Notes under the pieces: model-generated | Database searches by the model: none | What the model was told of the DNA's origin: nothing | Seen by the model: the letters and a program-made list of their open reading frames with translations, nothing else | Source of the DNA: Candidatus Zixiibacteriota bacterium | GTDB lineage: Bacteria > Zixibacteria > MSB-5A5 > UBA10806 | NCBI GenBank assembly: GCA_020344055.1 | Contig: CP070813.1 | Location: 653,499 to 708,577, forward strand | Direction: 5' to 3' | Length of the DNA stretch: 55,079 nucleotides | Shown here: piece after piece, positions 13,373 to 23,534 of the stretch | Layout: each line of letters begins with the position of its first letter | Numbering within the stretch: the first letter of the stretch is position 1 | Made by a program: the position numbers and the translations under genes

Positions 13373-14488
13373 ATGGCGGTAATGATGGAGGTCCTTGAGT
13401 GGGTAGACATGTCCGGTAGCGATATGATTCATCGCCTGCCGGAACAGGGTTCGCTCGATATCAAGGCGGGCGCTCAGCTCATCGTAAGAGAATCGCAATC
13501 GGCGGTATTTTTCAAATCGGGAAAGGGGTATGATGTACTGGGTCCCGGACGGCATACATTGTCATCGCTTAATATCCCCATTCTTACCCGGGCATTATCG
13601 CTTCCCTGGGGATTCAAATCGCCCATCAGGTGCGAGGTCTATTTTATAAATCATAAGGTATTTACCAATCTCAAATGGGGGACCCGCGATCCGGTCGCCT
13701 TCCGCGATAAAGAGCTGGGCCTGGTCAGGTTGCGGGGTTATGGCGTTTATACGTGCAGAATAGTGGAGCCCCTGGTTTTCATCAATAGCATCGTGGGTCG
13801 CGAGGCCGCCTACACCACCGACGACATCTCCAGCTACCTCCGGGATGTCATCGTGGCGCGCATTAACGATCTGTTCGGAGAGAAGCTTGAGACTATCTTC
13901 GACTTGCCAAAACAGTATGATGAGTTGGGATTGGAGATAAAGCAGAAAATCGGTGGAGAATTCTCCAAATACGGTATGGAGCTTATCGATTTCTACATTA
14001 CCTCCATCACGCCGCCGGACGAGGTCCAGAAGATGATCGACGAGAAATCCTCCATGAAGGCTGTGGGAGATCTTGATAAATTCCTGAAATACTCCATGGC
14101 CAAGGCCATGTCATCGGGAGAGGGAACCACTGCCCAGGCCGGAGCGGGGCTGGGAATGGCCGCCGGAGTCGGCTTGATGGTGCCGGCAATGCTTTCCAAC
14201 GCCTTCGCGCCGGAGGAGAAAGGTTTGAAAACGGGATCGGTTCCCACGGTAACCTGCCCCGATTGCGGTAATGATACGCCGCAAAACTCCAGGTTCTGCT
14301 ATAAATGCGGACATCCCATGGTCGCCTCCGATCGTTGCCCGGATTGCGGTATCGATCTCAGCCCCGATGCCAAATTTTGCCATTCGTGCGGCAAGAAATT
14401 GGGTGATAAGCTGACCTGCTCGAAATGCGGCGCCAGGCTTCCCTCGGGATCGAAATTCTGCACCGAGTGCGGCGAAAAGGTCGATTGA
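13373..14488 (+). CDS. SPFH/band-7 protein with three C-terminal zinc-ribbon pairs
   Basis: 371 aa, with AGGGAGG 6 nt before ATG. Residues about 25-230 form an SPFH domain of the YdjI-like type (LIVRESQSAVFFKSGK, LGPGRHTLSSLNIP, RLRGYGVYTCRI, YGMELIDFYITSITPPDEVQKMI). A short hydrophobic stretch lies at about 247-277 (AGAGLGMAAGVGLMVPAML). The tail carries CxxC pairs arranged as three zinc ribbons (CPDCGNDTPQNSRFCYKCG; CPDCGIDLSPDAKFCHSCG; CSKCGARLPSGSKFCTECG). In Bacillus the related YdjI helps bring a phage-shock protein to the membrane; a membrane-scaffold or stress role here is inference. It is followed 15 bp later by another zinc-ribbon gene. Confidence 0.85.
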   Translation: MAVMMEVLEWVDMSGSDMIHRLPEQGSLDIKAGAQLIVRESQSAVFFKSGKGYDVLGPGRHTLSSLNIPILTRALSLPWGFKSPIRCEVYFINHKVFTNLKWGTRDPVAFRDKELGLVRLRGYGVYTCRIVEPLVFINSIVGREAAYTTDDISSYLRDVIVARINDLFGEKLETIFDLPKQYDELGLEIKQKIGGEFSKYGMELIDFYITSITPPDEVQKMIDEKSSMKAVGDLDKFLKYSMAKAMSSGEGTTAQAGAGLGMAAGVGLMVPAMLSNAFAPEEKGLKTGSVPTVTCPDCGNDTPQNSRFCYKCGHPMVASDRCPDCGIDLSPDAKFCHSCGKKLGDKLTCSKCGARLPSGSKFCTECGEKVD

Positions 14489-14503
14489 TAGGGGAATTCG
14501 TTT

Positions 14504-15901
14504 ATGGCTGAATATTCAGCGCAATTTAATTGCCCCGGCTGCGGCTCACCCCTCGAGACCCTCGAAGGCACCATCAGCCTGCAGTGCAAATTCTGCGGGC
14601 TGATCATGCGTATCGGTTCGCCCGGCAGGATATTGAAATATTTCTATCAACCCAAACTCGACGGTTTCGCGGTAAAGTTCTCAGTCGAAAAACACCTCAA
14701 GGAAAAGGGATTATCGTTGACCTATTCCGAGATCTCGCGTCAGCTTTATTATATTCCCTTTTACAGGTTCAGGGGGATGTCTTACGTTCTTTTCTGTGAA
14801 AAGACGGTCGAATGCGACGACGAAGATCCCGAGAACGCCATACCCATGGTTAAGCGCGAACTGCAGAGGAAATGCAGCCATTTCGATCTTACCGTCCCCG
14901 GCTACACCAATGAATCGTTCAGCCTGGAATCGCTGGGAATAAGGCCGGAGGTCATGCCGTTGACGGCTCTTCACAAGGATAACTTCCCGGAGGATTCAGT
15001 TAAAATCGATATAAAAATCTCTCCCGAAGACGCCAAACAAAAGGCTATGGCGATGTTCTTTATGAATGTCGGTTTCGCGTCGTTAAATAAAGAAGTTCTA
15101 TCATCTGAGATGATCGGGGAGGGGCTTTCGGTGATTTACTATCCCGTCTGGGCCTTCTGTCTCAGCCAGGGCGATTTTGTAACGACCATGTTTATCGACG
15201 GTTTGAATAAGAGAGTGTACCATGAAATACCAGGCGAATTGGAGACACATTCGACCGGTGTCGATTTAAGCCGCGCCTCGGAGATGAACCCGGTTCTACA
15301 TAGGTGCCCCAATTGCGGTTTCGATCTCCGTGTTTCTGAATACTCGCTTTTTTATTATTGCGGGAACTGCTTCCGCTCTTATATGATAGGCGATGATAAG
15401 TACAATACAACGGAGTTACGGACCGCGAAATACGAAGAGGGCAATCATTATCATCCTTTCTGGAGATTTCCTTTTGTCGCAGGTGAAGATATCGATACCG
15501 TGTCGAAATTTTCTAAGGTTCTCACCGGGGAGATACCGCTGGTGGCGAAGAAGAAGGCTGAAAACAGGTTTTATCTATACGTGCCGGGATTCAAATCCAT
15601 GAACCTGAATTCCCTTACCAATGTGGGAACGAGAATCTGCTGCGTGCAACCGGAATTGAATTTTGAAAACAAACAGGTGCCTTTCGAGGCGGAGATGATT
15701 CTCCCCGAAAGCGAAGCCCTGGAGCTTGCCAGGCATTACTGGAACGTCATAAGAGCAAAATATCGCCATCTCGATCGGCCGGAATACGAGTTCGAGTCCT
15801 GTAAAACCGGCCCGGGGGAGATCGTCTGGCTCAGTCTTTCCAGACCGCATTACGATAACAGGCCCCGTTATCTTAACCAGGCCAAATTGTATGCCAGATA
15901 A
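14504..15901 (+). CDS. Zinc-ribbon protein of unknown function, SPFH partner candidate
   Basis: 465 aa. The N-terminus has a zinc ribbon (CPGCGSPLE then CKFCG, about residues 9-35) and a second one lies at about 267-292 (CPNCGFDL then CGNCF). Between and after them is soluble α/β sequence rich in aromatic residues (YYPVWAFCLSQGDF, HYHPFWRFPFV) with no clear transmembrane segment. I do not recognise the family. The position, 15 bp after the SPFH gene and overlapping the Ppx gene by 11 bp, suggests co-expression. By analogy with Bacillus ydjG-ydjH-ydjI, where a zinc-ribbon protein is encoded with an SPFH protein, it could be a partner in envelope-stress sensing; this is inference. Confidence 0.75.
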   Translation: MAEYSAQFNCPGCGSPLETLEGTISLQCKFCGLIMRIGSPGRILKYFYQPKLDGFAVKFSVEKHLKEKGLSLTYSEISRQLYYIPFYRFRGMSYVLFCEKTVECDDEDPENAIPMVKRELQRKCSHFDLTVPGYTNESFSLESLGIRPEVMPLTALHKDNFPEDSVKIDIKISPEDAKQKAMAMFFMNVGFASLNKEVLSSEMIGEGLSVIYYPVWAFCLSQGDFVTTMFIDGLNKRVYHEIPGELETHSTGVDLSRASEMNPVLHRCPNCGFDLRVSEYSLFYYCGNCFRSYMIGDDKYNTTELRTAKYEEGNHYHPFWRFPFVAGEDIDTVSKFSKVLTGEIPLVAKKKAENRFYLYVPGFKSMNLNSLTNVGTRICCVQPELNFENKQVPFEAEMILPESEALELARHYWNVIRAKYRHLDRPEYEFESCKTGPGEIVWLSLSRPHYDNRPRYLNQAKLYAR

Positions 15902-16799
15902 AAACAGGCTAATAATCGACGTGGGAACAAATTCCATCCTGGCGCTGAATGCAAAAATCAGCGATGGGGAAATATCGGTAATCTCCGATGTGAAGGTCAC
16001 CACCCGTCTTGGCGAAGGTCTGCAAAAATCCGGTTTGCTATCCAAAGAGGCCATGAAAAGGACAATCAAGGCTATTGCTGAGATATTCGCTAAAAAGAAC
16101 TTCGATTCCGCCACCGTTATCGGTACGGAGGCTGTTAGAAAGGCGACTAATAAATCGGATTTTTTAGAGTTAATAAAGAAAGAATGCGGATTGGAACCGG
16201 TTGTAATTTCCGGGGAATCCGAAGCCCGGCTATCATATTACGGGGCTTTCTATAATCTCCATATCGATAAAAGCGATATTTTGCTTGTGGATATGGGGGG
16301 CGGTTCCACGGAGTTGATTTTCGGATCCGGCGATAATATTACCGATAGCCTGAGCGTGCCCATAGGAGCAATGATACTGAAGGACGCCACTTCGACCGAT
16401 TCGCTCAAAGAATACAGCAGTTTCGCGGAAATCGTTTTCGCTAAAGAGCTTGAGAGATTCAGCCAAAATTCGCCGGGAACTTTGGTGGCCACCGGAGGTA
16501 CAATCACTTCAGCAGGGGCTATCTACAAAAAAATGACCGAATTTAAAGGCTCTGAAATTCATGGAATGAAACTTACCGCAAAAATCCTGACCGAAATCGG
16601 CGAAAAATTCGAGAATCTGGGTCCCGGGAAACGTAAATCATTGATACCGTTTGACCCTCATAGAGCGGATTTAATGTTGCCGGGCCTGGGAATATTTCTG
16701 ACGCTTCTCGGTATATTCAAGAAAGATGAAATAGTGATCTCAAACGGCGGATTGCGATACGGCGCCGCCTTGAGACCGGAGTTAGTTGTAAGTTGTTGA
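15891..16799 (+). CDS. Ppx/GppA-family phosphatase, short form
   Basis: 302 aa; the ATG overlaps the preceding stop by 11 bp. It belongs to the ASKHA fold Ppx/GppA family: IIDVGTNSILALNA (phosphate-1 loop), GTEAVRKATNK, GESEARLSYYG, LVDMGGGSTELIFG (phosphate-2), VATGGTITSAGAIYK. About 300 aa matches the single-domain short Ppx form, without the C-terminal HD-like domain of the about 500-aa enzymes. It should hydrolyse exopolyphosphate or the 5'-phosphate of pppGpp; the sequence alone does not say which. Its close linkage to the SPFH gene suggests a stress context. Confidence 0.88.
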   Translation: MPDKNRLIIDVGTNSILALNAKISDGEISVISDVKVTTRLGEGLQKSGLLSKEAMKRTIKAIAEIFAKKNFDSATVIGTEAVRKATNKSDFLELIKKECGLEPVVISGESEARLSYYGAFYNLHIDKSDILLVDMGGGSTELIFGSGDNITDSLSVPIGAMILKDATSTDSLKEYSSFAEIVFAKELERFSQNSPGTLVATGGTITSAGAIYKKMTEFKGSEIHGMKLTAKILTEIGEKFENLGPGKRKSLIPFDPHRADLMLPGLGIFLTLLGIFKKDEIVISNGGLRYGAALRPELVVSC

Positions 16800-16897: not shown

Positions 16898-18379
16898 ATG
16901 TTAAAGAAATTCACTTTTTCGACAAATTTGATTTTCCTCTGCGTTCTGTTTATATCCTGCGACGGCGATAACGGCCCTGCTCCATCAAATGTACCTGTCC
17001 TGTCGAATATCCAGCTTGTCGATCCTGTCCATTACGCCGATTCCCAGACGGTTTCGGTGCTGGTTTCCGATCCCCAGGGCCCCGGCGATATAGATTCTGT
17101 CTGGGGAAACTACCTGGTCCCGGGCAATCCCGGTTCCGTGCGATACATCCGGTTCCACGATGACGGAACTAATGGCGACGCGGCTCCGGGGGACAGCAGG
17201 TTTACCTCCCGATTCCGGCCGGCGACCGGGTTTATACTCGCCGATTACGCGCTAAACATTGGAGCTGTCGATCTGGCCGGTAATAGCGCCGACTGGATCG
17301 AGTCCGCATTTTCCGTCATAGATACCACTACTCCCTTATACCCGGTTTTATCCGATGTTCAGCTGGAGCTTTATCATTTCTACCGCGATTCGCAGACCGT
17401 TTCGGTCCTGGTCTCCGATCCCAACGGCCCCGAGGATATCGATTCTGTGTGGGGGCGGTATTATTTCGATGAGGCTATTCCGATTTACGCCCACGTTCTC
17501 CTCAACGATATTGGCATAAACGGTGATCTAATACCCGGTGACAGCCGTTATACCGCCATGTTCCTGCCCGATAGCGGCGCTTTTATTCAGGGCTTCTATA
17601 AGGTCAATATCTGGGCGGTCGATCTGGACGGTCAGCAGTCGGCGCGATACGACACCCTTTTCGTTTCTGCCGACTCGGCCGGATTGGTTTCGCCCGCATT
17701 TTTCGACCTGGAACTTGATATTATTCACAATTACACCGACTCCCAGACAGTCTCCATTTATGTCAGTGATCCTCAGGGATACGATAATATCGATTCCGTC
17801 TGGGGTGAATGGTTCTCCGTGGATAATCCTTTTCCTGTTAATCATATTCTTTTCTATGACGATGGCAGTCACGGAGATCAATCCTCCGGCGATGGCATTT
17901 TCACGATAACTTTCATGGCCGATACCGGGGTGTTCGATATCGGTTTGCATTACCTGAGCATATTCGCGGCCGATCTCGATGGCCACCAGTCGGATCAGTT
18001 CGATACCACCTTCACCACCGTTGGGAATCCGACTCTTTTTAATGTTGTGGCTCCTGATTCGATAGAACAAATTCCTGGCGATACGGTCAGAGTCACAATT
18101 ACCGTCGATGCTTATGATCCGGACGGGCTTTCTGATATTGATTCGGTCTTTTTTACATCAACGAGAGTAGGAGAGCCCCCGGATCCCGATCATTTTCACC
18201 TGTATGATGACGGAGATGTTAGTGCACATGGAGATCTTGTGGCGGGGGACGGTACTTACTCACTGATTATTCAAGTGGATGAATCAAGTATTCCGGGTGA
18301 TTATATTTTTAAGTTCTTCGCTTATGACAGCGATGGTAACGGTTCCAACAATCCGGAAACAATGGTAACAGTATACTGA
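16898..18379 (+). CDS. Lipoprotein with four repeated Ig-like domains
   Basis: 493 aa. The signal ends LFISC-D, a fair lipobox (Cys21). Four related domains of about 115 aa follow, each opening with DSQTVSVLVSDPQGPGDIDSVWG or a variant and containing a DDG-x-GD-x-x-PGD-x-R-[YF]-T loop (HDDGTNGDAAPGDSRFT; YDDGSHGDQSSGDGIFT; YDDGDVSAHGDLVAGDGTY). Acidic DDG/GD loops look suited to bind calcium. The domain type recurs on surface proteins of FCB bacteria; function unknown, probably spacer or binding module. Only 8 bp separate it from the T9SS cargo gene, which has its own SD (GAGGAG), so these two and the PorV-like genes look like one operon. Confidence 0.78.
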   Translation: MLKKFTFSTNLIFLCVLFISCDGDNGPAPSNVPVLSNIQLVDPVHYADSQTVSVLVSDPQGPGDIDSVWGNYLVPGNPGSVRYIRFHDDGTNGDAAPGDSRFTSRFRPATGFILADYALNIGAVDLAGNSADWIESAFSVIDTTTPLYPVLSDVQLELYHFYRDSQTVSVLVSDPNGPEDIDSVWGRYYFDEAIPIYAHVLLNDIGINGDLIPGDSRYTAMFLPDSGAFIQGFYKVNIWAVDLDGQQSARYDTLFVSADSAGLVSPAFFDLELDIIHNYTDSQTVSIYVSDPQGYDNIDSVWGEWFSVDNPFPVNHILFYDDGSHGDQSSGDGIFTITFMADTGVFDIGLHYLSIFAADLDGHQSDQFDTTFTTVGNPTLFNVVAPDSIEQIPGDTVRVTITVDAYDPDGLSDIDSVFFTSTRVGEPPDPDHFHLYDDGDVSAHGDLVAGDGTYSLIIQVDESSIPGDYIFKFFAYDSDGNGSNNPETMVTVY

Positions 18380-18387
18380 GGAGATAC

Positions 18388-20415
18388 ATGAAAAAAATAA
18401 TATTCGCGTCGGCATTATTACTTCCCGTTTCACTGGCCCTCGGCCGCGTGACCATAACCCTGGACGGCGGCATTACCGGGCTGACCTCCAACGCCGTGAT
18501 CGATATAGATCATACCTCCAACGCCATCTGGCTTGGAACGGGCAGCGGAGCGTCGGTCAGTTTCGACAGCGGCGCCACCTGGACCACGTTTAGCACCGGA
18601 TCCGGGCTTCCCGGCGCAGAGGTCTCGGCCCTGGCCGCAAACAATGTCGCCGTTTGGGTGGGCAATTCTCATTCTGAAACTTTTGGTGGTGAAGAAATTC
18701 CTTTCGGGAACGGTATATCTTTTACCACCGATGACGGTCAGACCTGGGCCTCCTTTCGGCCCTTCGCCTATCTTTTTCCCGGCTATACCGGATCGCCCGG
18801 AATGCTCTCTTACGATCTGGCGGTGTACGATTCCATAGTCTACTCGGCATCATTTTACGGGGGGTTGATACGCAGCACCGATTACGGAGAGTCCTGGGAG
18901 AATCTTTTCCCCACCCAGCTCAATGAAACCAATACCGATTCCATCGATTTTGTCGATCGGAATTATTTAAGTCTCAATAATAGAATGTTTTCGGTAACCG
19001 TGGATACCGGCGGTTCTCCCGATACGCTCAACGTATGGGCGGGAAGCGCCGTCGGCATTAACCGCTTTTCTTTTCCGGGAACGGGGGGCGTCTACGATAC
19101 CTATCCTGCAAATATCGTCAGGGCCTTCAGAATGGACGCCGAGTTTGTCTGGGATCAATACGACTGGCATAAAGATACGGTTATGGCCGATTTCTTTATA
19201 GGTGTGTCCGGAGAATCGCAATCGGAAGATAACGAGGACTGGCTTTATTCTCCCGTAGTAAATTTCAGTAACGCCTCGGCCTGCACTCTCTTTTTCGAAC
19301 AGTATTACTTCTTTGGCGACTCCGTAAATATCGATTCCGGTCTGGTGCTGTTATCCGACGACGGTGGCAACTCCTGGCCCGAGACGGTCGCCGTTTTCAC
19401 CGCCTACCCCGATAGCGTTTACGGCGACAGCACCGCCTCGGACAGTCAATGGATAGACATTTCATCTTTCGCGGCGGGCAAGAGCTCTATTATAACCGCG
19501 TTCCTTTACCTCAGGAATATCTATGAGCTGACCGAAGAGGCCGGAAGCTGGATGCTGAACGATATTACTTATCTCGCGGACGGCGATACTTTGCTGGTTG
19601 AGGATTTTGAGGGAGATTGGGGACCTTATGGCAACCTCCCTCCATCCGGCTGGATAATCCTTGATGGCGATTACGATAAGCAGCTCGCAGGTAATTTCGT
19701 GGTCGCCCTCGGCGTTCAGGAATTCCAGAATACCAGAATTATCTGGGCCGCCTGCAGGCCCGCTTTCTCGGGCCTTCTCAGGGTGTCATATTCCTATAAC
19801 GACGGCAGAACCTGGAACACTGCGGATATTGCCGACCGTTTCGGTGACGATGACATCGAAGCCTGGAATTTCTCATTTGCGGAAGATACCGTTTATGTCG
19901 CCTCCAGCAACGGACTTTTCTGGTCCGAGGGCGACTATTCGGAATGGAACTATTTCTCCGGTTTTGTCGATACCCTGGATCAGACATTCGTTCACGACGA
20001 AGCCCCGTTCTTTTCGGTTGATGTCGTCGGAGCGGATATATGGGCCGGAGGCTCGGACGGCGTGATAAAAGGGCGAGCCGGTAACTGGGATGTTTTCCGG
20101 TCATCAATAGATGCCGCCGACCATTTCGCATATCCCTCTCCTTTTTCGCCTACGCATGTCACCAGGCAGGGCGCGACAATCCATTTCAGGCCGTCGGTGG
20201 ATACATATGCCACGATCAAGATCTATGATATAAATCTCGAACTGGTAAAGACCGTCGTTGACGGCGTGTATCGACGGGGCGGCGTCGAATCGGATGATAT
20301 CCTCTGGGATGGCACCAATGGCGATGGTGATTTGGCCGCCAACGGAATCTATTTCTATAGAATTCAACTCGATTCGGGCGAAGACCTCTGGGGAAAGGTG
20401 GTGTTGATAAAATGA
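18388..20415 (+). CDS. Secreted propeller-like protein with FlgD/T9SS-type C-terminal domain
   Basis: 675 aa, signal peptide about 1-19 (ending LALG-R). The first about 190 aa and the stretch at 430-560 contain BNR/YVTN-like blades (IWLGTGSGASVSFDSGATW, SFTTDDGQTWASF, LIRSTDYGESWENLF, RVSYSYNDGRTW, VYVASSNGLFWSEGDY). Between them about 220 aa resemble a jelly-roll or immune-inhibitor-type module (DWLYSPVVNFSNASACTLFF). The last about 90 aa are a FlgD-Ig/T9SS-type tail (AYPSPFSPTHV, IKIYDINLELVKTV, WDGTNGDGDLAANGIYFYRIQ). The protein is probably exported across the outer membrane. It overlaps by 4 bp the PorV-family gene whose relatives carry such cargo, which supports T9SS export. Confidence 0.82.
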   Translation: MKKIIFASALLLPVSLALGRVTITLDGGITGLTSNAVIDIDHTSNAIWLGTGSGASVSFDSGATWTTFSTGSGLPGAEVSALAANNVAVWVGNSHSETFGGEEIPFGNGISFTTDDGQTWASFRPFAYLFPGYTGSPGMLSYDLAVYDSIVYSASFYGGLIRSTDYGESWENLFPTQLNETNTDSIDFVDRNYLSLNNRMFSVTVDTGGSPDTLNVWAGSAVGINRFSFPGTGGVYDTYPANIVRAFRMDAEFVWDQYDWHKDTVMADFFIGVSGESQSEDNEDWLYSPVVNFSNASACTLFFEQYYFFGDSVNIDSGLVLLSDDGGNSWPETVAVFTAYPDSVYGDSTASDSQWIDISSFAAGKSSIITAFLYLRNIYELTEEAGSWMLNDITYLADGDTLLVEDFEGDWGPYGNLPPSGWIILDGDYDKQLAGNFVVALGVQEFQNTRIIWAACRPAFSGLLRVSYSYNDGRTWNTADIADRFGDDDIEAWNFSFAEDTVYVASSNGLFWSEGDYSEWNYFSGFVDTLDQTFVHDEAPFFSVDVVGADIWAGGSDGVIKGRAGNWDVFRSSIDAADHFAYPSPFSPTHVTRQGATIHFRPSVDTYATIKIYDINLELVKTVVDGVYRRGGVESDDILWDGTNGDGDLAANGIYFYRIQLDSGEDLWGKVVLIK

Positions 20416-21398
20416 GAAGGATGTTGTTTACGATTATAGCGATTTTATCGGCATCATCCATCGCCGTTTCGGGCGAATATGCCGGATATGCCGGAGCCTT
20501 TCTGAGAAACGGTGTGGGAGCCAGAGCCCTCGGTATGGGCGGCGCCTTCACCGCAGTTGCCGAGGGGATCGATGCCGTCTACTACAATCCCGCGGGATTG
20601 GGTTTTATTCCCAGAACCATGGTCGGATTCAGCTACAAATCTCTTTCGCTGGACAGGCATTTCGGACATATCGCCGTCGCGTTTCCTATAAGAAATGAGG
20701 CCGCCATGGCCGCCAGCTGGCTGAATTTCGGCGTTTCCGATGTGCCTATGAGAGGGCAGTCCCGGCAGATTCTGGGTGAGGTTAAAAATAACAGTAATGC
20801 CTTCGAACTCTCCTTTGCCAAAGCCCTGGGGGAGAAATTTTCTTTTGGCGGTAAAATTCGATACCTTCAGGAAAAATTCGATGACCTCCAAAGTTTCACC
20901 GTAGGTATGGACATGGGCGCGATCGCCAGACCGCGCGAATTTGTCTCGATCGCGGCCGTATTTCAAAACATAGGCTCCAAACATCAATGGAACGGCGGTG
21001 ATTACTGGACCCGGGGCACGACTTATGAAGAACAATTTCCCATAGTGATGAAATTCGGGGCCGCCGGCAATCTGGTAAAGGGTAAGATAGTACCCGCTGT
21101 CGATTTGGAGACAAGCGATAAGGGCGAGCTCAAGTTCAGGGCCGGGACGGAATTATGGTACACCAAAAAAGTTACCCGCCGGGTCGAGGACGAATACGAG
21201 GAAGATTTATATGTCGAAGTCGAGGAAGATGTCCGTGTCGCCGGTTTGCGAATTGGCGTGGATAGGAAAAATCCCACCTTCGGGGCGTCGGTGATTCGGG
21301 TGATGAGAAATACATCATTGAGTCTCGATTACGCCTATCTTGTAGGACGCGAGGGAACATCGGCAGGGCACCTTTTTACCCTGGGATTTGTTTTTTAG
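20412..21398 (+). CDS. PorV/PorQ-family outer-membrane protein
   Basis: 328 aa; ATGA overlap with the cargo gene. Signal peptide about 1-21. The family signature is near the N-terminus: AFLRNGVGARALGMGGAFTAVAEG, then DAVYYNPAGLGF, as in PorV/PorQ (UPF0164) proteins of T9SS. The remainder is amphipathic β strands of a FadL-like barrel, ending in an aromatic residue (LFTLGFVF). PorV shuttles CTD-bearing cargo from the translocon to the attachment complex; PorQ proteins act similarly. An acidic patch (EDEYEEDLYVEVEED, about 260-275) is unusual and may form a loop. A role in exporting the upstream protein is inferred. Confidence 0.85.
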   Translation: MRRMLFTIIAILSASSIAVSGEYAGYAGAFLRNGVGARALGMGGAFTAVAEGIDAVYYNPAGLGFIPRTMVGFSYKSLSLDRHFGHIAVAFPIRNEAAMAASWLNFGVSDVPMRGQSRQILGEVKNNSNAFELSFAKALGEKFSFGGKIRYLQEKFDDLQSFTVGMDMGAIARPREFVSIAAVFQNIGSKHQWNGGDYWTRGTTYEEQFPIVMKFGAAGNLVKGKIVPAVDLETSDKGELKFRAGTELWYTKKVTRRVEDEYEEDLYVEVEEDVRVAGLRIGVDRKNPTFGASVIRVMRNTSLSLDYAYLVGREGTSAGHLFTLGFVF

Positions 21399-21405
21399 GT
21401 TGAAG

Positions 21406-22308
21406 ATGATAAAGAAAACTTTTGCGCTTCTTTTTCTTCTGTATTCCGCGTCGTTTGCGGAGGTAGGCGGAAGTTCTTTCGAATTTCTGCTGGTCGGTTC
21501 ATCCTCCCGGGCTTCGGCCATGGGGGAGGCCTTCTCCGCCGTCAGCGGCGACGCGGGCGCGCCGTATTTCAATCCCGCTTCCGCAGGCGTTATGAACGGC
21601 AGTGAAGTCTCCTTCGCGCATCTGGTATACCTTGAGGATGCCTCCATAGAGCAGTTGTCGGCGTTAACCCGTTCCGGAAAGATGCGCCTCGGCCTGAATA
21701 TGAGTATCGGACAGGTGGCCGATTTCGAGCGTCGCGATGACCGTCCCACCACTGAACCTCTGGGGACTTTCGACGAACACAATTTTGCCCTGTCCATATT
21801 CTGGGCCTATCCGATATCGCCTGACTGGTCGGTCGGGAACGCCCTGAAATTCGCATATGAAAAACTTGATTACGGAAGCGCTACCGCGGTCGGCACCGAC
21901 CTCGGGATTTTCTACACCTTCGATCCCCAGATAGCCTTCGGAGCTTCCGTCAGGAATCTGGGCTCCAGACCGAAATTCATCTCCAGATCATACGATCTGC
22001 CCAGGGAATTGAGGCTGGGATTTTCCTATCGGGGCGCCCCGGAGTCCCCCCTGGACGGTATCCTGTTCGCCGCCGACTATATCCTGCCCAAATGGGGCAA
22101 CGGCGATTCCAAGCTCAATTTCGGCGGCGAATATAACTACGACAATTTCGTCTTTTTCCGGAGCGGTTATAATCTCGGTTACGATTCCCGATCGTTCGCT
22201 ATCGGCGGAGGGTTGGCTTATCGGATATATTATATCGATTACGCATACGTGATTTTCAGGCACAACCTGAGCAATACGCATAGAATCACCATGCGGATCA
22301 GGTTGTAG
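21406..22308 (+). CDS. Second PorV/PorQ-family outer-membrane protein
   Basis: 300 aa from ATG 21406; in-frame TTG codons upstream overlap the previous gene and lack a signal-like start. Signal peptide about 1-18 (ending SFA-E). The N-terminal signature parallels its neighbour: FLLVGSSSRASAMGEAFSAVSG, then APYFNPASAGVM. β-barrel strands follow with a final IRL. The two genes are 7 bp apart and are distant tandem paralogues. One may be the PorV-like and the other the PorQ-like type; the sequence does not decide. No other T9SS core gene (porK-N, sov, porU) is seen in the window. Confidence 0.83.
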   Translation: MIKKTFALLFLLYSASFAEVGGSSFEFLLVGSSSRASAMGEAFSAVSGDAGAPYFNPASAGVMNGSEVSFAHLVYLEDASIEQLSALTRSGKMRLGLNMSIGQVADFERRDDRPTTEPLGTFDEHNFALSIFWAYPISPDWSVGNALKFAYEKLDYGSATAVGTDLGIFYTFDPQIAFGASVRNLGSRPKFISRSYDLPRELRLGFSYRGAPESPLDGILFAADYILPKWGNGDSKLNFGGEYNYDNFVFFRSGYNLGYDSRSFAIGGGLAYRIYYIDYAYVIFRHNLSNTHRITMRIRL

Positions 22309-22415: not shown

Positions 22416-23534
22416 GTGCCGAAATTTAAGATAGCCTGGATGCCCGGCGATGGTGTCGGCAACGATGTGATGGAAGCCGCCCGGATCGTCCTTGATAAAA
22501 TCGAACTCGACGCTGAATATATTCATGCCGATATCGGATGGGAGTTCTGGCGCAAAGAGGGCGATCCCCTTCCGGATCGCACCATAAAAATACTCGACGA
22601 GACCGATTGCGCCCTGTTCGGCGCCATAACCTCCAAACCCAAAGAGGAAGCCGAAAACGAGCTCGTTGCAGAACTGCGGGGTAAAGGTTTGACCTACCTA
22701 TCGCCGATAGTAAGATTGCGGCAACTGCTTAATCTCAGAACCAACCTGCGCCCTTGTAAGGCCTATCCCGGAAATCCCCTTAACTACAGGGATGATATAG
22801 ACATAACCGTCTTCAGGGAAAACACCGAGGATCTTTATTCCGGCGTGGAGTTCTTCCCGTTGCCGGACGATGTCCGCGAAACGCTGAAGAAACATAATAA
22901 GAAAATGTCCCGCTTCGATTGGTCGCCCGCCGATAAAACCGCCCTTTCTTGCCGAATTGTTACCGCAAGGGCCTGCGAAAACATAGTCCGCGACGCTTTT
23001 GAGTACGCCAGAAAGCATGGCAAGAAAACCGTAACCGTGGTTGAAAAGCCGAACGTTATAAGAGAAACATCCGGCCTGATGGTGCGTACCGCGCGCAGAG
23101 TCGCGAAGGGATATCCCGGTATTCCCCTCTGGGAAACCAATATCGATGCCATGTGTATGTGGCTGGTGAAAAATCCGCAGGATTATTCCGTTCTGGTGAC
23201 ATCGAACATGTTCGGCGATATAGTATCCGATCTCGCAGCTCAGCTCGTAGGGGGATTGGGATTCGCCTGCTCCGGCAATATCGGCGATGATTACGCGGTT
23301 TTCGAACCCACGCACGGTTCCGCTCCCAAGTACGCCGGTCAGTACAAGGTCAATCCCATGGCTATGCTTCTCACTACTAAAATGATGCTCGATTATCTGG
23401 GCGAATTTGATAAATCATCATCATTGGAAACCGCCATCGCCGGGGTTATTAAAGAGGGCAAGATCCGCACCTACGATGTGGGCGGAACCAATACCACCTT
23501 GGAGGTCGCCGAAGCGGTCGCGACACGGCTTTAA
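22416..23534 (+). CDS. Isocitrate/isopropylmalate dehydrogenase family, probable NADP-linked isocitrate dehydrogenase
   Basis: 372 aa from a GTG with AAAAGGAG upstream. β-decarboxylating dehydrogenase fold: MPGDGVGNDVMEAAR, FGAITSKP, RTNLRPCKAYPG (substrate arginines), FRENTEDLYSG, VVEKPNVIRETSG (Lys/Tyr-region variant), SNMFGDIVSDLAAQLVGGLGF (metal Asp). The cofactor loop THGSAPKYAG carries Lys305-Tyr306 in the place where E. coli Icd has Lys344-Tyr345, which favour NADP. The length is that of IPMDH or short IDHs rather than E. coli Icd (416). It therefore most likely oxidises isocitrate to 2-oxoglutarate; isopropylmalate or homoisocitrate as substrate is not excluded. No leu or TCA genes lie next to it. 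Confidence 0.8.
   Translation: MPKFKIAWMPGDGVGNDVMEAARIVLDKIELDAEYIHADIGWEFWRKEGDPLPDRTIKILDETDCALFGAITSKPKEEAENELVAELRGKGLTYLSPIVRLRQLLNLRTNLRPCKAYPGNPLNYRDDIDITVFRENTEDLYSGVEFFPLPDDVRETLKKHNKKMSRFDWSPADKTALSCRIVTARACENIVRDAFEYARKHGKKTVTVVEKPNVIRETSGLMVRTARRVAKGYPGIPLWETNIDAMCMWLVKNPQDYSVLVTSNMFGDIVSDLAAQLVGGLGFACSGNIGDDYAVFEPTHGSAPKYAGQYKVNPMAMLLTTKMMLDYLGEFDKSSSLETAIAGVIKEGKIRTYDVGGTNTTLEVAEAVATRL

Follow-up and report, generated by a model that had tools for sequence, protein, structure and literature searches.

In Bacillus subtilis, the pspA-ydjGHI set brings together YdjI, an SPFH protein with zinc ribbons, YdjG, which joins zinc ribbons to a transmembrane segment, the TPM protein YdjH, and PspA; YdjI has been reported to lack a membrane anchor of its own, and YdjI-type SPFH proteins are known to assist the recruitment of PspA to membranes. 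We analysed a 55,079-nucleotide stretch of DNA (the window) from the 3.83-Mb, one-contig genome of a Candidatus Zixiibacteriota bacterium (GenBank assembly GCA_020344055.1, contig CP070813.1, positions 653,499 to 708,577), in which a gene for an SPFH protein is followed by a gene for a 465-residue protein, here called MID, and by a gene for a short Ppx/GppA phosphatase (Ppx). We found that SPFH and MID constitute a real conserved unit common to several phyla, and that the adjacency of Ppx is inherited gene order and not evidence for a circuit linking the membrane to alarmones.

Work on B. subtilis (PMC8581546) states that YdjI and the membrane proteins YdjG and YdjH are required for recruitment of PspA to the membrane, and according to Ravi et al. 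2024 (PMC11237479) YdjG combines two zinc ribbons with a YpeB-related domain and a membrane segment. NfeD is paired with the SPFH1, SPFH2 and SPFH5 subfamilies in 'Evolution of prokaryotic SPFH proteins' (PMC2636767), a text from which the word 'zinc' is absent. No paper in the open-licence literature was recognised as dealing with the SPFH-MID pair or with MID. When YdjI, YdjG and PspA were compared with the locus, the SPFH protein was seen to belong to the same family (PF13421), to end in a zinc ribbon and to have a zinc-ribbon partner, but Zixibacteria differed in having no PspA above cut-off. The original prediction had compared the locus with Bacillus ydjGHI, but had placed neither the large middle protein nor the phosphatase in that set; a relation of the SPFH protein and its zinc-ribbon partner to the YdjI/YdjG half is supported, and the two are kept together across phyla. 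As judged by sequence, the pair is related to this part of the set but is not a Psp system.

Conservation and relatives of the SPFH-MID pair

The three open reading frames (ORFs), all on the + strand, have the positions, lengths and junctions (15 bp between SPFH and MID, -11 bp between MID and Ppx) originally predicted, and Pfam and NCBIfam searches agreed with the protein make-up proposed there, namely an SPFH protein with three zinc ribbons, an unrecognised two-ribbon protein and a short Ppx/GppA. Specifically, the SPFH protein matched Band_7_1 (PF13421) with an E-value of 6.5e-64 (215.9 bits; cut-off 24), and 84 of 88 SPFH homologues in the phylum had three ribbon motifs, the remaining 4 having two. 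As regards a membrane anchor in this protein, one Gly/Ala-rich stretch, at residues 256-274, has a Kyte-Doolittle mean of 1.63. MID matched no Pfam or NCBIfam family above cut-off, but the eight cysteines of its two CxxC...CxxC ribbons were invariant across 30 aligned homologues; it has no predicted membrane helix, the best 19-residue hydropathy window averaging 1.21. Identity to the window protein was mostly 57-75% for SPFH, where for MID it was often only 20-30%, SPFH being conserved far better than MID.

A single-sequence search found MID in 91 of 132 Zixibacteria genomes, and a profile search added G119, G016 and G086. The neighbourhood was examined in all 91, and in 88 of these SPFH was the gene immediately upstream of MID; the remaining loci (G090, G092 and G052) are at contig ends, with 72, 0 and 2 bases remaining on that side. 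Further Zixibacteria loci, largely from the same species as the 132-genome set, were not counted again. Outside the phylum, the pair was present in all four loci from Nitrospinota and related genomes (L196-L199, labelled Nitrospinota, Nitrospinales or 'bacterium'), SPFH being cut by the contig start in two, and in a third phylum 10 of 12 genomes had MID, in each case immediately preceded by SPFH (10/10). The gene-neighbourhood analysis that had been proposed as a check therefore confirmed the co-occurrence of SPFH with the 465-aa gene, in other phyla as well as in Zixibacteria. Among 33 non-phylum genomes matched by the MID profile, 20 neighbourhoods were examined, and an SPFH-zinc-ribbon gene lay beside, or one gene from, the MID-like gene in seven (L154, L155, L156, L158, L162, L169 and L170), L154 and L155 being third-phylum loci already among the ten counted above.

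In the third phylum, NfeD followed directly downstream of MID in 9/9 contigs that continue, and a stomatin-type SPFH gene came next in 8/9. This arrangement resembles the NfeD-stomatin (slipin) operons, in that an NfeD containing a ClpP-like part comes after the pair, in most cases together with a stomatin; the window differs, since the genes around its pair match no NfeD and no stomatin stands beside it. The ten third-phylum loci (L154, L155 and L227-L234; for example, L154:4333-9575) have the order helical protein of about 170 aa, SPFH, MID, NfeD (ClpP-like) and stomatin, with all five genes together in 7/10. The gene for the helical protein, which gave no Pfam match worth naming, was upstream of SPFH in 9/10 of these loci and in L158 and L162 from other phyla; it was sought in the Zixibacteria neighbourhoods and not found.

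In other phyla MID is split, gene B covering profile positions of about 3-240 and gene C about 258-402, and B is often preceded by a gene A similar to its beginning; MID looks like a B + C fusion. In one Zixibacteria genome (G124, L203), MID is broken in two at the B/C boundary. SPFH accompanies the split genes in L158 and L162, and in L158 both the A and the B protein have a pair of hydrophobic segments at the C-terminus, a feature absent from MID. Tandem sets of three zinc-ribbon ORFs of this A-B-C kind, belonging to no named family, were seen in L158, L159, L160, L161, L162, L163, L171 and L172; some carry hydrophobic C-terminal segments, and 6/8 had no SPFH-zinc-ribbon gene in the stretch examined.

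The MID profile also matched five two-ribbon proteins (L169 and L170, each with a C-terminal hydrophobic segment, L167, L168 and L173), which we call YdjG-like by architecture. A search of nine sequences gave independent E-values of about 1e-9 to 1e-11, and the matches ran from ribbon 1 of MID to a YxPFW motif, corresponding to the second ribbon through YxPFW in the two-ribbon proteins; an extra piece at profile positions 179-238 was marginal only. The N-half of MID is thus related in sequence to YdjG-like proteins beyond the ribbon. The predicted N-half also weakly resembles a YpeB domain, the kind of domain that PMC11237479 describes for YdjG. Differences from YdjG are that MID has a ribbon at each end of the N-half, compared with two in a row in YdjG, and that it has no membrane helix and has an extra C-half. 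The predicted structure of MID had a predicted local distance difference test score (pLDDT) of 81.7 and a predicted template modelling score (pTM) of 0.80, and the N-half alone 84.5 and 0.77. Among re-aligned chains, for both whole MID and the N-half, CD1622 (4exr) ranked first and the YpeB C-terminal domain (5boi) second, with weak VIA-align Z-scores of 5.2-5.5 and 4.9-5.1, respectively, over 63-67 residues, below the level that the tool itself rates as trustworthy; Foldseek gave E-values of 0.057 and 0.33 for 5boi. A search for solved relatives of MID found none, the only matches being to ribbons. The YpeB-like predicted fold is consistent with the relation to YdjG, but is not proof of it.

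PspA was above the Pfam cut-off in 0/132 Zixibacteria genomes, and the same search gave matches in 9/14 control genomes, so that by this feature SPFH-MID is not a Psp system. A different arrangement was found in L169:5824-8757 (G299), where a gene for a YdjG-like two-ribbon protein is followed by PspA/IM30 (E 1.6e-40) and then by an SPFH-zinc-ribbon gene, a row that looks like a Psp locus. The PspA gene lying between these two genes, together with the YdjI/YdjG relation and six weaker, sub-cut-off PspA matches in the phylum, could be taken to mean that SPFH-MID is a reduced psp-ydjGHI, recruiting a divergent and undetected PspA/ESCRT-III-like protein encoded elsewhere. We consider this unlikely, because no genome of the phylum exceeded the cut-off and the window genome lacked even a weak PspA match.

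The Ppx gene beside the pair

Of 78 Zixibacteria loci that could be assessed, 17 had Ppx as the gene immediately after MID, distributed as 4/4 in family f1, 3/4 in f2, 4/4 in f11, 2/2 in f12, 2/3 in f17 and 2/2 in f19, with 0/59 in the others. Ppx/GppA was present in 42/132 genomes, of which 31 had MID, compared with 60 of the 90 Ppx-less genomes (Fisher p=0.54, or 0.42 when profile-only MID matches were added); MID and Ppx occurred together in 31 genomes, Ppx only in 11, MID only in 60 and neither in 30. Of the 31 genomes that have both genes, 14 did not show them side by side, including G131, where the contig of the pair ends. The original prediction held that the linkage would be accidental if the three families rarely co-occurred in related genomes: SPFH and MID do occur together, but Ppx shows no excess over chance in the 31/11/60/30 table.

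The neighbourhood of Ppx was examined in 20 of the 25 genomes in which it is not beside MID (all except G066, G067, G068, G071 and G095). In f3 and f8 genomes with the pair elsewhere, the order EtfA-Ppx-secreted protein-PorV-PorV-Icd is kept, and in f19 genomes lacking MID, Ppx sits after EtfA. In f7, a large family, the sole Ppx is a PPK-linked copy in G061, and in 14 loci, as counted by hand, the pair is still flanked by EtfA on one side and the secreted/PorV block on the other. Because each persists without the other while the blocks are kept, the pair and Ppx are best seen as old neighbours in a larger conserved gene order that have been lost or moved independently. A tree of 61 SPFH proteins, built with at most 12 sequences each for f7 and f10 and without sequences shorter than 300 aa, had six changes of the Ppx-adjacent state, an unrooted count in which gain and loss are not separable by the tree alone.

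The closeness of the junction was rejected as evidence for a functional unit, since the gene that Ppx overlaps or abuts varies between genomes, being MID, EtfA, a biotin-ligase-like gene, a methyltransferase gene or PPK1; ORF starts were unrefined, so that a large negative gap gives only the maximum overlap. In G118, for example, the biotin-ligase-like gene overlaps Ppx in the place of MID. In G119 (L175:6708-7906), a remnant of MID, comprising its last 96 or so residues, still has a 4-bp overlap with an intact Ppx, although SPFH and all other parts of MID are gone.

The Ppx protein itself matched Ppx/GppA (PF02541) with an E-value of 2.1e-52 (178.8 bits; cut-off 27). It matched the short Ppx/GppA enzyme of Aquifex aeolicus (1T6C, 2J4R) over the full length (E 1.5e-42), its E111, D134 and E141 aligning with E119, D141 and E148, the key acidic residues that we take to be catalytic in that enzyme. 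It differs in scoring 199.2 bits against NCBIfam exo_poly_only (TIGR03706), below the cut-off of 307, and in that neither PPK1 nor PPK2 was found when the window genome was searched for them. PPK1 was above cut-off in 4/132 genomes (G061, G099, G125 and G131), with a Ppx gene beside each; PPK2 was convincing only in G131, G109 and G110 exceeding the cut-off by a short weak match. The PPK1-adjacent Ppx genes (G061:C284, G099:C449, G125:C26 and G131:C421) stand in a context different from that of the Ppx in the window. The absence of detected PPK1 and PPK2 weakens polyphosphate as the substrate, and the window Ppx probably does not serve PPK-made polyphosphate; a GppA-like or other phosphatase role appears more likely than hydrolysis of such polyphosphate. 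RelA/SpoT was present in 118/132 genomes, including that of the window, and in 40/42 Ppx genomes, and an alarmone (GppA-type) activity of Ppx is therefore possible, but nothing ties such an activity to the pair.

It had been suggested that the three genes are one unit linking membrane state to alarmone or polyphosphate metabolism, which would mean that an SPFH-MID complex senses the membrane and sets the activity of Ppx on (p)ppGpp or polyphosphate. The same-strand adjacency in 17 loci of six families, mostly with overlap, and the wide presence of RelA/SpoT fit such a system, but it is improbable given the lack of excess co-occurrence, the many genomes with either MID or Ppx alone or with the two apart, the junctions of Ppx with other genes, the PPK searches, and the lack of a neighbouring Ppx at the loci of the pair in Nitrospinota and in the third phylum. 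The proposed linkage was thus not borne out, and Ppx was rejected as a third component because of the co-occurrence data, its separability from the pair and the gene block of its own. With Ppx an inherited neighbour in a block of its own, a shared regulatory circuit is unlikely; co-transcription of SPFH-MID and Ppx in the window genome is possible. The tight packing of Ppx is an instance of conserved gene order, and such packing may be a trap for operon-based guesses of function.

Possible role of the pair

The data may be best explained by SPFH and MID forming a two-protein, PspA-free membrane module with Ppx as an inherited neighbour, a reading that we regard as probable. SPFH would most likely oligomerise at the cytoplasmic membrane, on its inner face, with the zinc ribbons exposed; MID, which is soluble and has a YdjG-like domain besides its two ribbons, would dock on the SPFH ribbons as a dedicated partner; and the two together may serve, without PspA, as a scaffold for membrane surveillance or for quality control of membrane proteins, the latter role being suggested by the association with NfeD and stomatin in the third phylum. 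Several observations weigh against this reading. Absence calls in draft genomes are soft; fold searches with the whole MID model and with its N-half gave no confident solved match, the best Foldseek E-value being that for 5boi; since MID has no predicted membrane helix, the case for placing it at the membrane depends on its SPFH partner and its relatives; and the recurrence of Ppx adjacency in six families, mostly with short overlaps, fits co-transcription and also a lineage-specific link. The ribbons of MID had their best sequence matches in RNA polymerase subunit P, TFIIB-type and ribosomal ribbons, as expected if MID were a nucleic-acid-binding or transcription-related protein merely tethered by SPFH, but these matches cover the ribbon only and fall below curated cut-offs, and relatives of MID have hydrophobic segments at the C-terminus and occur beside NfeD/stomatin, making this unlikely.

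A phylum that keeps SPFH and a zinc-ribbon partner without detectable PspA points to a function of the scaffold in its own right. More tentatively, and with rather less than even confidence, we propose that an SPFH-zinc-ribbon scaffold and a dedicated, unnamed family of zinc-ribbon partners, fused as MID or split as A-B-C, carry out PspA-independent membrane maintenance in several phyla, the Firmicute psp-ydjGHI being a branch that uses PspA and some phyla having tied the scaffold to the NfeD-stomatin protease pair. Neither a Pfam entry nor a solved structure exists for the MID family, and the occurrence of fused and split forms allows contacts between the proteins to be predicted.

Features and gene order of the locus

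The features of the window are collected in the table. A search for defence systems with PADLOC gave no match below E 0.08.

Table. Features of the SPFH-MID locus and of the block downstream (window coordinates)
Feature	Coordinates	Strand	Remarks
Gene 1, SPFH (Band_7_1), YdjI-type	13373..14488	+	371 aa, three C-terminal zinc ribbons
Three SPFH zinc ribbons, residues about 294-371	14252..14485	+	Pfam Zn_Ribbon_1 / DZR
Gene 2, MID	14504..15901	+	465 aa; zinc ribbon, alpha/beta domain, zinc ribbon, C-terminal domain
MID zinc ribbon 1 (C10, C13, C28, C31, invariant)	14531..14596	+	From alignment
MID N-half domain, residues 49-244	14648..15235	+	Predicted fold weakly like YpeB C-terminal domain / CD1622
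MID zinc ribbon 2 (C268, C271, C286, C289, invariant)	15305..15370	+	Starts the C-half (separate gene in other phyla)
Gene 3, short Ppx/GppA phosphatase	15891..16799	+	302 aa; judged a neighbour, not part of the module
Secreted repeat protein	16898..18379	+	Opens the block conserved 3' of Ppx in the phylum
Secreted protein with FlgD-like C-terminal tail	18388..20415	+	Same post-Ppx block
PorV-like outer-membrane protein	20412..21398	+	Same post-Ppx block; second copy at 21388-22308
Isocitrate/isopropylmalate dehydrogenase family gene	22416..23534	+	Closes the conserved post-Ppx block

Across families of Zixibacteria, a long gene order, Dus-LarB-LarC-EtfA-(SPFH-MID)-Ppx-secreted-PorV-PorV-Icd, was observed; in the family to which the window belongs, the Dus-to-EtfA part is not upstream. 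The order from Dus to Icd is unusually stable for genes of seemingly unrelated functions.

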